Shown: in pieces, positions 37,565-42,557 of the stretch
How the letters are laid out: each line of letters opens with the position of its first letter
Position numbering within the stretch: position 1 is the first letter of the stretch
Assembly: GCA_021413735.1 (NCBI GenBank)
Contig: JAIOPV010000275.1
Location: 1 to 48,987, forward strand
Direction of reading: 5' to 3'
From: Planctomycetota bacterium
Lineage (GTDB): Bacteria; Planctomycetota; Planctomycetia; Gemmatales; Gemmataceae
DNA: 48,987 nt
The notes under the pieces: model-generated
Told to the model about the DNA's origin: nothing
The model's input: only the letters and a program-made list of their open reading frames with translations
Databases searched by the model: none
Translations under genes and position numbers: made by a program

Positions 37565-37592
37565 TCGTGTGGGGGGCAACCTCCGCCGATTC

Positions 37593-37628
37593 CTCTTATC
37601 TCACCGCACCCGCTGGGCTCCCCGGCGG
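37593..37628 (+). promoter_or_regulatory. Candidate expression platform of the SAM riboswitch
   Basis: CTTATC at 37595-37600 can pair with the 3' strand of P1 (GATAAG, 37556-37561), competing with aptamer formation. Just after it, CCGCTGGG and CCCCGGCGG can form a hairpin at about 37610-37628. Mutually exclusive pairing of this kind is how S-box platforms switch. No T-run follows the hairpin, so control could be at translation or through Rho. Confidence 0.5.
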
Positions 37629-37674
37629 TTCATCCCTGGAACAAGACTCACTCCAACACAACTGGGGTGTCTCC

Positions 37675-38940
37675 GTGTCGAGTAGCGACTTTTCCATCGG
37701 CATGAAGTGTCGCGTCTGCGGCAAGCTCTATCCAAAATCTCCCATCAACTTCTGCGTCGACGACTTCGGCCCACTCGAAGTCGCCTACGACTACGCACGA
37801 GTGAAGCCGGCGCTCACCCGCGCCAAGCTCGATAAGCGGCCGTGGAATATGTGGCGGTATCGCGAACTGCTGCCGCTCGACGGCGAGCCCACCGTTGGCG
37901 AACACGTCGGCGGCACGCCACTGATTCGCGCCGACCGCCTCGCGGATGCACTCGGCGTCGAGCGGTTGTGGATCAAGAACGACGCGGTGAACTTCCCGAC
38001 GCTGTCGTTCAAGGATCGCGTCGTGTCGGTGGCGCTCAGCAAGGCCCGCGAGTTCGGAATGCGAACCGTCGGCTGTGCCAGCACCGGGAACCTCGCGAAC
38101 AGCGTTGCGGCACAGGCTGCCTCTGCTGGATTGGAGAGCTTCATCCTTGTTCCGGCCGATCTGGAGCGAGTGAAGATCCTCGGCACGGCCGTCTTCGGGG
38201 CGAAGGTCATCAAGCTGACCGGCACCTACGACGAGGTGAACCGCGTCTGCACCCAGATCGCGATGAAGTACGGCTGGGGGTTCGTCAACGTGAACCTGCG
38301 GCCGTTCTACGCGGAAGGCTCGAAGACGATGGGCTTCGAGATCGCGGAGGAACTCGGCTGGCGATTCCCGCAGCACGTCGTTTGTCCAATGGCGGGCGGA
38401 GCGCTCATCGGCAAGATTCACAAGGCGTTCACGGAACTGCACAACGTCGGCCTCGTGGACACGCCCGTTACGACGAAGATGTACGGGGCACAGGCCACCG
38501 GTTGCAATCCAATCGCCGACTGCGTGAAGAGCGGTCGCGAGCGTCACAAGCCGGTGCGGAAGCCGAACACGATCTGCAAGAGCCTCGCGATCGGCGACCC
38601 TGCCGACGGGTACTTCGCGGCGAAGCTCATCAAGGAGTCTGGCGGTTGGTCTGAGGACGCAACTGACGCAGAGATCGTCGAATCGATGATTCTGCTGGCG
38701 AAGACGGAAGGCGTGTTCGCGGAGACGGCAGGCGGTGCGACTCTGGCCGTGGCGCGAAAGCTGATCGAGTCGGGCCGCATTCCGCGAGACGAAGAGATTG
38801 TGTTGTGCATCACGGGCAACGGCCTGAAGACGCAAGACGCGGTGTTCGACGCTCTGGAAGCGCCAGCGACGATCGCCCCGACGCTGGCCGCGTTCGAGGA
38901 ACTGTCGGGTTTGAAGTCAACGGAACCGGCGTTGGTGTAA
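37675..38940 (+). CDS. Threonine synthase-like PLP enzyme under SAM control
   Basis: A 421-residue protein from GTG 37675 (ATG 37702 is possible). An N-terminal Cys cluster C12-X2-C15...C27 (KCRVCGKLYP) begins it, as in many ThrC proteins. The fold-type II PLP site is FPTLSFKDR with Lys113; the phosphate loop is ASTGNLANSVAAQAASAGL, and LVPADLERVKILG and GTYDEVN follow. Threonine synthase converts O-phosphohomoserine to threonine. Two features argue for a different or added role: it follows a SAM-I riboswitch, normally found on methionine and SAM genes, and it leads an operon for a sulfur carrier, E1 enzyme and cysteine desulfurase. It may be an O-phosphohomoserine sulfhydrylase; plain threonine synthase remains possible. 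Confidence 0.8.
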   Translation: MSSSDFSIGMKCRVCGKLYPKSPINFCVDDFGPLEVAYDYARVKPALTRAKLDKRPWNMWRYRELLPLDGEPTVGEHVGGTPLIRADRLADALGVERLWIKNDAVNFPTLSFKDRVVSVALSKAREFGMRTVGCASTGNLANSVAAQAASAGLESFILVPADLERVKILGTAVFGAKVIKLTGTYDEVNRVCTQIAMKYGWGFVNVNLRPFYAEGSKTMGFEIAEELGWRFPQHVVCPMAGGALIGKIHKAFTELHNVGLVDTPVTTKMYGAQATGCNPIADCVKSGRERHKPVRKPNTICKSLAIGDPADGYFAAKLIKESGGWSEDATDAEIVESMILLAKTEGVFAETAGGATLAVARKLIESGRIPRDEEIVLCITGNGLKTQDAVFDALEAPATIAPTLAAFEELSGLKSTEPALV

Positions 38941-38943
38941 TTT

Positions 38944-39013
38944 GTAGGGCCGGCTCTGCCGGCCGATATTTGCGGGATGCGAACACGAAGATGGCCGGCA
39001 GAGCCGGCCCTAC
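38944..39013. repeat. Perfect 21-bp inverted repeat between thrC-like and moaD-like genes
   Basis: GTAGGGCCGGCTCTGCCGGCC (38944-38964) and its exact reverse complement (38993-39013) enclose a 28-base loop. Each arm also contains the near-palindrome GCCGGCTCTGCCGGC. It starts 3 bases after one stop codon and ends 12 before the next start codon, just ahead of the GAGGAAA ribosome site. It looks like a mobile or REP-type intergenic element. Confidence 0.85.
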
Positions 39014-39025
39014 GAAGAGGAAACG

Positions 39026-39298
39026 ATGGCAATTAAGGTTGAGATTCCCGGTCCGTTGCGTGAGCAAGCTGGCGGCAAGACAGAAGTGACCGTGACCGGA
39101 ACTACGGTGGGCACGGCACTCGCCGATCTCGTGAAGCAATTCCCGGCGCTGGAACCGAAGCTGTTTCAGAATGGTACGATTCGCCCATACATCAACGTGT
39201 TCGTCAACAACGAGGACATCCGCTACCTCGACGAGATGGACACGGCGCTCACCGATGGCGTGGTCGTGGCGTTGATCCCCGCAGTCGCCGGGGGCTGA
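39026..39298 (+). CDS. MoaD/ThiS-family ubiquitin-like sulfur carrier protein
   Basis: A 90-residue beta-grasp protein with a GAGGAAA site. It begins IKVEIPGPLREQAGGKTEV, continues with a helix ALADLVKQFPALEPKLF and a strand PYINVFVNNEDI, and ends DGVVVALIPAVAGG with the free Gly-Gly terminus needed for adenylation and thiocarboxylation. MoaD, ThiS and CysO work this way for molybdopterin, thiazole and cysteine synthesis. Here the neighbours (thrC-like, E1-like, cysteine desulfurase, no moaE, no thiG) point to another acceptor. No C-terminal processing enzyme is needed, as nothing follows Gly-Gly. Confidence 0.88.
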   Translation: MAIKVEIPGPLREQAGGKTEVTVTGTTVGTALADLVKQFPALEPKLFQNGTIRPYINVFVNNEDIRYLDEMDTALTDGVVVALIPAVAGG

Positions 39299-39300
39299 CC

Positions 39301-39579
39301 GTGCCGATTGTGACTCTCCCGAAAATGCTCACCGAATTGGTGGTGGATTCCCCTGCGTGGACCGAAGTTCGGGTGCATTCGCGGAAAGATAAGGACATCT
39401 ACCGTGAACTTGCTCTCCTGTTCCCACAGATTCAGCATCACATGGTGAAAGAGGGTGAGCCGCGTTGGGTGTTCGCACTGTTTCGGGATCGAGACGATGA
39501 AGACCTACGCGGCTTGCCCGACGATCATGTGCTTGACGCGGATGAACGGCTATCTCTGATACCAATGGTTGGCTGCTGA
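39301..39579 (+). CDS. Second MoaD-like beta-grasp protein, ending Gly-Cys
   Basis: A 92-residue protein whose GTG begins 2 bases after the moaD-like stop. It aligns over its whole length with that neighbour: VTLPKMLTELVVDSPAW against VEIPGPLREQAGGKT, ELALLFPQIQHHMV against DLVKQFPALEPKLF, and DERLSLIPMVGC against DGVVVALIPAVAGG. It is therefore a diverged tandem copy. The last two residues are Gly-Cys instead of Gly-Gly, so it cannot be activated by the usual route unless the Cys is removed or is itself the sulfur-bearing residue. I know of no named family with this ending. The coding frame is well kept. Confidence 0.7.
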   Translation: MPIVTLPKMLTELVVDSPAWTEVRVHSRKDKDIYRELALLFPQIQHHMVKEGEPRWVFALFRDRDDEDLRGLPDDHVLDADERLSLIPMVGC

Positions 39580-39593
39580 ATCACGAGGAAGAT

Positions 39594-39935
39594 GTGGCCG
39601 AGGAAGACACAGAACCGACGCCCGAAGAAGCTCCCGACGGAGCGGCGGTGTTTCCGCTGATCCCGGAGGAGTTGGGCGTTCACCCGCTGCTGCTCGCGGC
39701 ACTGCACGCTTACGTCTTCCTCGAAGGTTCCGATGCCAGCGTGCTCAATGCGGCCGTCGCCGAAGAAGCGATGAACTATCTCGTCGGCTATTTCCAACGA
39801 ATGGAAGGCGACGGGTTGCGTCGAATGCGTGAAGACATGGCCACGCTCGCGGGCTTCGCGAAGGCCGAGAAGTGGCCCAAACAGCAGGTGCGATTCCTGC
39901 AAGACTTCCTCAAAGACAACGGAATTACTGGTTGA
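39594..39935 (+). CDS. Uncharacterised acidic helical protein of the sulfur-carrier operon
   Basis: A 113-residue protein from GTG 39594, 14 bases after the previous stop. The first 20 residues are acidic and flexible (EEDTEPTPEEAPDG). The rest looks helical: PLLLAALHAYVFLEGSDASV, LNAAVAEEAMNYLVGYFQRM and WPKQQVRFLQDFLKDNGI. It has no cysteine and no metal motif, so it is not a JAMM protease. It is probably a binding or scaffold partner in the operon. Function unknown. Confidence 0.65.
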   Translation: MAEEDTEPTPEEAPDGAAVFPLIPEELGVHPLLLAALHAYVFLEGSDASVLNAAVAEEAMNYLVGYFQRMEGDGLRRMREDMATLAGFAKAEKWPKQQVRFLQDFLKDNGITG

Positions 39936-39942
39936 ATCCCTC

Positions 39943-39993
39943 GTTTAGCCGCGACCCGCAGGGGAGCGTGCTCCCTTGCGGTCGCGGCTAAAC
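39943..39993. repeat. REP-like inverted repeat before the moeB-like gene
   Basis: GTTTAGCCGCGACC-C-GCAGGGGAGC pairs with GCTCCCTTGC-GGTCGCGGCTAAAC with one bulge and one mismatch; the loop is only a few bases (GT). It sits between the hypothetical gene and the E1-like gene, ending 16 bases before the ATG. Confidence 0.75.
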
Positions 39994-41079: not shown

Positions 41080-41400
41080 GTGAGTTTCCGTCGCGACCGA
41101 GCACCTGAGTTGGCTTGGCGAGACTGGGTGACGACGCACGAAACCGAGTTGATAGCCCTCGGTATCCCTCGCGAAGTGTGGGCCGACCGGATGACGTGGT
41201 GGCGATTTCTCGAAAACACCATTCATCCCGACGTCTCAAACGCTCGTGACGTGCGGTTCCGCCTCACGGATCTTTCACCCGAGCAGCAACAGCGACTCTA
41301 CCGATTTCTTGACCTCGTCCTTCCCGACCAACGTGCCGGCGTGGTTGTCTGGTGGGTCTTGAATCATCAGTTTGGGACTGACACAGACAACCGCGAGTAA
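41080..41400 (+). CDS. Uncharacterised small protein between the E1-like and desulfurase genes
   Basis: A 106-residue protein from GTG 41080, with AAGGA upstream and only 14 bases after the E1-like stop. It is rich in Trp and Arg (APELAWRDWVTTHETEL, WADRMTWWRFLEN, VVVWWVLNHQF). No known motif or cysteine is visible. It ends 11 bases before the cysteine desulfurase ATG. It is likely a real operon member of unknown role. Confidence 0.6.
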   Translation: MSFRRDRAPELAWRDWVTTHETELIALGIPREVWADRMTWWRFLENTIHPDVSNARDVRFRLTDLSPEQQQRLYRFLDLVLPDQRAGVVVWWVLNHQFGTDTDNRE

Positions 41401-41411
41401 ACTACGACACC

Positions 41412-42557
41412 ATGATTTACCTCGATAACGCAGCGACGAGTTTCCCGAAGCCCGAAGGCGTTTACACCGCACTCGATCACTTCGCACGACACACCCTCGC
41501 GAACCCCGGACGTGCCGGCCACAAGATGGCTCTCGCGGCAGAGCACACGCTCGACGATGCACGCCACCGGCTCAACCGCTTCTTCTCGGGCGTGCGGCCG
41601 GATCGGTGGGTCTTCACGCTCAACTGCACAGACGCCCTCAACATGGCGTTCAAGGGCGTCCTCAACGATGGCGACCACGTCATCACCACCGACCTCGAAC
41701 ACAACAGTGTCTCGCGGCCACTGGTCGCGATGGCCGAAGCGGGTCGCATCACGCTAACCCGCATCGCGTCCGATGGTGGCGGAACGGTCGATCCTGCGGC
41801 GATTCAGGCGGCGTTCACCCCGAAGACTCGGCTCGTGGCCGTCACACACGCGAGCAATGTTCTCGGCACGGTTCAGCCCATCGCCGAGATCGGGAAGTTG
41901 GTTCGCGCTCGCGATGCGCTCTACCTCGTCGATGCGGCACAGACCGCAGGTGTGATTCCGATCGACGTGCAGGCCGAGTGCATTGACCTGCTGGCGTTCC
42001 CGGGGCACAAGTCACTGTTCGGGCCGACCGGCACGGGAGCGTTGTATGTCGGCTTGCGAGCCGCCGTGCGACCGTGGCGTGAAGGCGGCACCGGTGGCGA
42101 CTCGTCCAGCCCGTTGCAGCCGAAGGAGTTCCCGTACTACCTCGAAGGCGGCACCCCGAACGTGCTCGGGGTCGCGGGGTTGGTCGCGGGTCTTAACTTC
42201 GTCGAGGAACGCGGTCCAGCAGCGATTCTGCATCACGAAATCGAACTGTGCGATCGACTGCGGGGAGCCCTCGGGGAAATGTCTGGCTTCGAGGTGTTCG
42301 GCCACGGCGACCCCAAGCGTCGCGTCGGCACGGTCAGCTTCCGCTGTGAGGTGATGCCCGCGTCCGACCTCGGCGCGATCCTCGATCAGTCGTTCGACAT
42401 CGCCATCCGACCGGGCCTGCACTGCGCTCCGTATATCCACAAAGCGGTAGGCAGCTACCCCGACGGTTTGGCTCGCGTCAGTCCGGGACCGTTCAGCACC
42501 ACTGCTGAGATCGACACACTCATCGAAGCTCTGAAGGAAGTCACCGGTGGAATATGA
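41412..42557 (+). CDS. Cysteine desulfurase family protein (class V aminotransferase fold)
   Basis: A 381-residue protein. IYLDNAATSFPKPEGVYTAL opens the NifS/SufS fold. The PLP lysine is K200 in FPGHKSLFGPTGTGALYVG, and YLEGGTPNVLGVAGL is the EGGT block of the TIGR01977-type group. The persulfide-forming Cys is C338 in IRPGLHCAPYIHKAVG. It takes sulfur from cysteine as an enzyme persulfide and leaves alanine. As the last gene of the operon it can supply the sulfur for the MoaD-like carrier through the E1-like enzyme. SufS and IscS partners (sufU, iscU) are absent nearby, which supports a dedicated role. Confidence 0.9.
   Translation: MIYLDNAATSFPKPEGVYTALDHFARHTLANPGRAGHKMALAAEHTLDDARHRLNRFFSGVRPDRWVFTLNCTDALNMAFKGVLNDGDHVITTDLEHNSVSRPLVAMAEAGRITLTRIASDGGGTVDPAAIQAAFTPKTRLVAVTHASNVLGTVQPIAEIGKLVRARDALYLVDAAQTAGVIPIDVQAECIDLLAFPGHKSLFGPTGTGALYVGLRAAVRPWREGGTGGDSSSPLQPKEFPYYLEGGTPNVLGVAGLVAGLNFVEERGPAAILHHEIELCDRLRGALGEMSGFEVFGHGDPKRRVGTVSFRCEVMPASDLGAILDQSFDIAIRPGLHCAPYIHKAVGSYPDGLARVSPGPFSTTAEIDTLIEALKEVTGGI

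Follow-up and report, generated by a model that had tools for sequence, protein, structure and literature searches.

A fast-evolving, predicted beta-grasp paralogue ending in Gly-Cys: an optional gene beside a CysO/SAMP1-like sulfur carrier in some Gemmataceae

The Gly end is the working end of sulfur carriers and of ubiquitin-like proteins. In UFM1 and ATG8, which are eukaryotic ubiquitin-like proteins, a hydrophobic residue and a Gly are followed by a removable tail, and dedicated proteases and E1s act on these proteins. Capped ends are also described for carriers: in a published account (PMC6006322), PtmS3 has Gly-Gly followed by one Cys and PtmS2 has Gly-Gly followed by Met-Val, and capped carriers such as these typically require a QbsD-type protease. 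Here we analyse a locus in which a carrier with an intact Gly-Gly end (C1) stands beside a constrained sister without one (C2). This arrangement is a small natural experiment on the purpose of the Gly end, and it bears on how carrier pathways acquire optional partners. The locus lies in what we call the window, the whole 48,987-nucleotide stretch of Gemmataceae DNA that was analysed. No paper describing C2 was found in one open-access library by the search terms used. The window contains the following features around the two carriers.

37567..38940, + strand: PALP enzyme, threonine-synthase-like, upstream of both carriers; the gene may really begin further into the frame
38940..39025: intergenic inverted repeat, apparently a dispersed REP-like element, arms at 38948-38964 and 38993-39009
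39026..39298, + strand: C1, CysO/SAMP1-like beta-grasp sulfur carrier ending Gly-Gly, 90 aa
39301..39579, + strand: C2, divergent paralogue of C1 with a predicted beta-grasp fold, ending Gly-Cys, 92 aa, GTG start
39571..39576, + strand: last two C2 codons, Gly (GGC) and Cys (TGC)
39594..39935, + strand: X113, conserved small operon protein, 113 aa
40010..41065, + strand: E1-like ThiF/MoeB-family adenylyltransferase with an extra C-terminal part (Pfam ThiF, 5.6e-76)
41080..41400, + strand: X106, small protein with no family assigned, recognised in 5 of 40 loci
41412..42557, + strand: class V aminotransferase, cysteine desulfurase family protein (CD; Pfam Aminotran_5, 6e-82)

An earlier note on this DNA had reported tandem beta-grasp carriers at 39026-39579, one ending Gly-Gly and one ending Gly-Cys, with a 2-base gap. 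The pair was borne out as two adjacent + strand reading frames, 39026-39298 ending AVAGG and 39301-39579 ending MVGC. The 2-base gap between them is a property of the window; the other six C2 copies described below have a 3-base gap. The PALP enzyme matches Pfam PF00291 (8.3e-68) and NCBIfam TIGR00260 (277.9 bits, cut-off 167.1). Of the 19 genomes of the genus, 16 have three thrC-like matches, and in one of these, the window genome, two of the three exceed the cut-off; the operon copy thus need not be threonine synthase, and a CysO/CysM-like role may be envisaged. The E1-like protein gives a PRK12475-type match over residues 8-350 that falls under that model's cut-off, and CD exceeds the cut-off of NCBIfam TIGR01977 (398.3 bits against 377). 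X113 had no Pfam match above cut-off and no NCBIfam match, and it is strongly conserved and recognised in 38 of the 40 loci around C1. A phage-defence reading was rejected: none of C2, C1 and X113 matched a PADLOC model at E values up to 0.01, and the PADLOC matches of the E1 to E1-E2 models (best 2.8e-18) and of the desulfurase to SspA and DndA models (about 1e-52) are as expected of those enzyme folds.

The inverted repeat between PALP and C1 (38940-39025) has perfect 17-base arms. A search of its own genome returned 19 matches, counting itself and those on the opposite strand, and the repeat therefore looks like a dispersed REP-like element. A second inverted-repeat-like stretch lies between X113 and E1 (39945-39990), and a motif resembling it was seen by eye downstream of C1 in genome G003 (L044).

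C1 is a normal carrier. It matches Pfam ThiS (2.2e-14), scores 65.5 bits against the SAMP1 model NCBIfam NF041918 (cut-off 60) with a Gly-Gly end, AVAGG, and has CysO of Mycobacterium tuberculosis as its best solved relative (3dwg_C, E 6.8e-15). It was found in 88 of 95 family genomes at E<=1e-20. In the 40 loci fetched around C1 from these 88 genomes its C-terminus is invariably Gly-Gly (39 AVAGG, one AVSGG). The window genome has three ThiS-family matches, C1 among them; C2 goes unrecognised.

The window C2 had no match in Pfam or NCBIfam, and none of the seven known C2 members matched ThiS (PF02597) at E values up to 1. Compared directly with C1, C2 shows 28% identity over 71 aa by BLASTP (E 7e-5 for that single comparison) and a profile-profile probability of 96.5% by HHalign (E 7.6e-10, 81 columns), and on these scores it is homologous to C1. 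Its GTG start agrees with the six other copies, which have ATG at the same point of a shared beginning, MP(V/I/T)V. An AlphaFold2 model built from four sequences (mean pLDDT 82.6) predicts a beta-grasp with a low-confidence tail at residues 91-92 (mean pLDDT 48). When this model was compared with the PDB using Foldseek, the three best matches were SAMP1 chains, the first being 3po0 (E 8.6e-4), and SAMP1 3po0 was the only match at E<=0.001; VIA Z was 9.4 to the MoaD-related 1v8c and 8.8 to CysO 3dwg_C. Ubiquitin, ISG15 and kindlin, all sharing the fold, appeared lower in both structure-match lists. A C2 profile search of solved structures gave a single unconvincing match (E 1.4). By its model, then, C2 is predicted to have the beta-grasp (ubiquitin-like) fold of sulfur carriers.

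A search with the single protein detected C2 in 6 of 41 genomes, its own included. A profile search (E<1e-30) found it in 7 of 95 family genomes and not in the other 88. At most 54 candidates were scored per genome, and 29 of the 95 are less than 90% complete or more than 5% contaminated, so that a C2 that is very divergent or was left unassembled could have escaped this search. Six of the C2 genomes (G000, which is the window genome, G002, G005, G007, G009 and G010) belong to one genus, and G109 belongs to another. At E<=0.01 the profile matched 29 of the 95 genomes, and only the seven with E<1e-30 were counted as C2; among the other 22 matches, 21 overlap the places of C1 and the remaining one, a G022 protein, is a carrier with an AIGGG end. 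In a sample of 392 Planctomycetota genomes, the window genome included and at most 13 candidates scored per genome, no strong C2 match at E<=1e-4 was found besides the window genome; two further genomes, G245 and G251, matched weakly, and their matches are carriers ending AIAGG and AIAGGLQ. In G251 the ThiS-family carrier gene, with Gly-Gly and a two-residue cap (L072:1483-1761), adjoins a Prok-JAB gene on the opposite strand (L072:1910-2350). A pattern built on the C2 copies of G010, G005 and G109, which could miss others, recovered those same three loci from genome contigs and nothing from viral contigs.

In all seven loci C2 occupies the same slot, between C1 and X113. In the 33 of 40 loci without C2, the next recognised operon gene is X113 in 31 and E1 in two. 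With C2 not found in 88 of 95 genomes and the operon occurring without it, C2 is optional. The C1-X113 junction tolerates insertions, for it holds other reading frames without a Pfam match in G016 (L039:1806-3086, 426 aa) and G072 (L060:1808-2788, 326 aa).

The earlier note described the end of C2 as a terminal Gly-to-Cys swap. C2 does end in Cys, but a simple swap is rejected: with the tails anchored on a shared 'LIP', C1 reads PAVAGG and C2 reads PMVGC (MAFFT and HHalign agree), so that C2 has one tail residue fewer and, in place of Gly-Gly, a single Gly before the Cys. The penultimate Gly is kept in all seven copies, and none ends in Gly-Gly. The last residue is Cys in six copies (G000, G005, G007, G009, G010 and G109) and Asp in G002, a member of the same genus as the window; the terminal Cys is therefore common among homologues and not invariant. 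The tail is encoded with GGC or GGG for Gly and with TGC or TGT for Cys. The terminal Cys is the sole Cys of the protein in four copies (G000, G007, G009 and G109), and the G002 copy lacks Cys altogether, which argues that a terminal thiol is non-essential. Altogether 17 of 95 alignment columns are invariant, the Gly included, and six more, including the last, are identical in six of the seven copies. The Cys is thus well kept, yet unexceptional among C2 positions. Random C-termini or frameshifts, proposed beforehand as signs of a decaying duplicate, were for the most part not seen, as all seven frames are open and six end Gly-Cys. The suggestion that retention beside C1 implies a role gains from the same two observations and is qualified by the 88 genomes in which C2 was not found, G008, the window's nearest relative, among them.

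The seven C2 frames encode 92-93 aa and share invariant residues specific to C2. dN/dS of C2 is below 0.5 in 21 of 21 pairs; dS exceeds 1 in 20 of these, so that only the unsaturated pair G007-G009 is reliable, with 0.14 for C2 and 0.04 for C1. Identity between C2 copies is 30-57%, except for G007-G009 (96%), a near-identical pair that amounts to about one observation; C1 of the same seven genomes is 71-90% identical (G007-G009, 98%). By these sequence comparisons C2 evolves faster than C1. GC3 of C2 (0.59-0.75) is the lowest of the measured operon genes in all seven genomes, PALP lying outside the G007 stretch. At four-fold sites, few in C2 (11-44 per pair), C2 has diverged more than C1 in 20 of the 21 pairs and less only in G007-G009 (0.09 against 0.20); in two pairs with G109 the genes are nearly equal (0.50 against 0.48 for G007, 0.43 against 0.40 for G009). 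GC3 and four-fold divergence suggest horizontal swapping of C2 alleles, although the pattern would fit such exchange or, alternatively, relaxed codon use in a gene expressed at a low level.

On a tree of PALP, E1 and CD, made from 34 of the 40 loci (the other six had too little sequence to be kept), at least five changes are required to account for the presence of C2. The nearest relative of the window on this tree is G008, 95% identical over the kept columns; C2 was not found there, and C1 and X113 lie 3 bases apart. In an AU test C2 rejected the PALP-E1-CD topology (p 0.024). So did the control gene C1 (p 0.001), which rejected the C2 topology as well (p 0.020); the test is thus not specific to C2, does not tell exchange from relaxed codon use, and we do not rely on it. 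We also compared alignment columns of the operon proteins in 23 of the 40 fetched loci, of which 23 were usable for C1, X113 and E1, 20 for CD and 19 for PALP. No column in these five proteins separates genomes with C2 from those without, the largest frequency difference being 0.62. Co-adapted operon partners were rejected on this basis, and these columns give no hint that the shared machinery has been adapted to C2 as a substrate.

We favour, with a probability of roughly 0.4, the reading that C2 is a working but optional gene whose product is probably a non-thiocarboxylating partner of the C1 pathway in some Gemmataceae. C2 is a fast-evolving paralogue of C1 with a predicted beta-grasp fold, retained as a dispensable addition to the C1-E1-desulfurase operon. 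Lacking Gly-Gly, and with a tail that falls one residue short of the C1 tail, it would not be a normal thiocarboxylate substrate. Most likely it would retain the body that docks on shared partners, whether the E1, the PALP enzyme or C1 itself, and it would modulate or compete with C1, its Gly-Cys end being used in binding and not in sulfur delivery. Among the options first raised for the Cys end (trimming, a persulfide, or a non-reactive partner), a non-reactive partner would fit best. Several observations count against it: an invariant Gly with a variable last residue is also expected of a capped carrier; Gly-Cys in six of seven copies exceeds the need of a purely passive tail; a Prok-JAB protease that could remove a cap is encoded throughout the genus; constraint on C2 is weaker than on C1 in the same pair; and model confidence is low in the last C2 residues. 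The single Gly, the shorter tail and the Asp copy nevertheless place the partner reading first, a capped carrier second and a thiol carrier third.

If C2 were a capped carrier, a JAMM-family protease would remove the Cys or Asp, and the single terminal Gly would be activated by the E1 for sulfur transfer or conjugation. The Gly is invariant while the residue after it varies (six Cys, one Asp), as this requires, and the published account of PtmS3 and PtmS2 (PMC6006322) offers a precedent, above all in the single Cys after Gly-Gly of PtmS3. The AIAGGLQ carrier beside an opposite-strand Prok-JAB gene in G251, another planctomycete, also speaks for it. Every one of the 19 genomes examined in the window genus (G109 being of another genus) encodes JAMM-family (Prok-JAB) proteases, so trimming of C2 is possible; but they occur with or without C2, and none is among the window operon genes. 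C2 also has one Gly where capped carriers have two, and removal of its last residue would make its tail fall two residues short of the C1 tail. We regard this explanation as unlikely, though the most serious of the alternatives.

A more doubtful proposal is that the terminal Cys itself becomes persulfidated by the desulfurase, or else enters into a disulfide, and acts as a swinging arm feeding the C1 adenylate. The Cys of six copies is encoded by both TGC and TGT and is the only one in four of them, a desulfurase-family protein lies in the operon, and no rhodanese domain was reported in the E1 by Pfam or NCBIfam. The Cys-free G002 copy weakens the persulfide option, and 33 of the 40 loci have the operon without C2. 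Slightly less credible again is a more speculative variant in which C2, exchangeable and fast-evolving, would be a decoy with the ubiquitin fold or a thiol carrier that handles sulfur at its C-terminal Cys and not as a Gly thiocarboxylate, its gene travelling between Gemmataceae as a cassette that enters one fixed slot of the operon. That C2 is a functionless, decaying duplicate of C1 might be read from its fast evolution, patchy occurrence, low GC3 and higher dN/dS than C1 in the closest pair, but seven open frames, C2-specific invariant residues, dN/dS below 0.5 in every pair and 0.14 in the unsaturated one make decay very improbable. Equally improbable is that the Gly-Cys ending is a by-product of nucleotide constraint, with the last codons doubling as the X113 ribosome-binding sequence: the X113 start lies a few bases from the C2 stop and GGG stands at a plausible distance in G007, G009 and G010 (by inspection), but in the window and G109 the start is further off with its own purine-rich sequence upstream and Gly-Cys is kept all the same, the Gly (GGC, GGG) and Cys (TGC, TGT) codons vary, and the Cys is left unexplained.

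Compared with known systems, the locus shares with CysO of Mycobacterium tuberculosis and SAMP1-type carriers the beta-grasp fold, C1 being a clear relative, and an operon in which a PLP enzyme and an E1 are also encoded; C2 differs from them in having no Gly-Gly, no match to a carrier family model and a tail one residue shorter than C1. The end of C2 resembles those of UFM1 and ATG8 in having a single Gly after a hydrophobic residue and then an extra residue. With PtmS3 and PtmS2 (PMC6006322) C2 shares a Gly followed by a one-residue Cys end (PtmS3), and its genus encodes Prok-JAB, a JAMM-family protease, in all 19 genomes. It differs from them in having one Gly and not two, in all seven copies, no protease in the operon, and Asp in one copy. 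Lacking a Gly-Gly end, a ThiS match and Gly-Gly with a short cap, C2 is filed neither with the sulfur carriers nor with the capped carriers; by its predicted structure, it is a paralogue having the sulfur-carrier fold.
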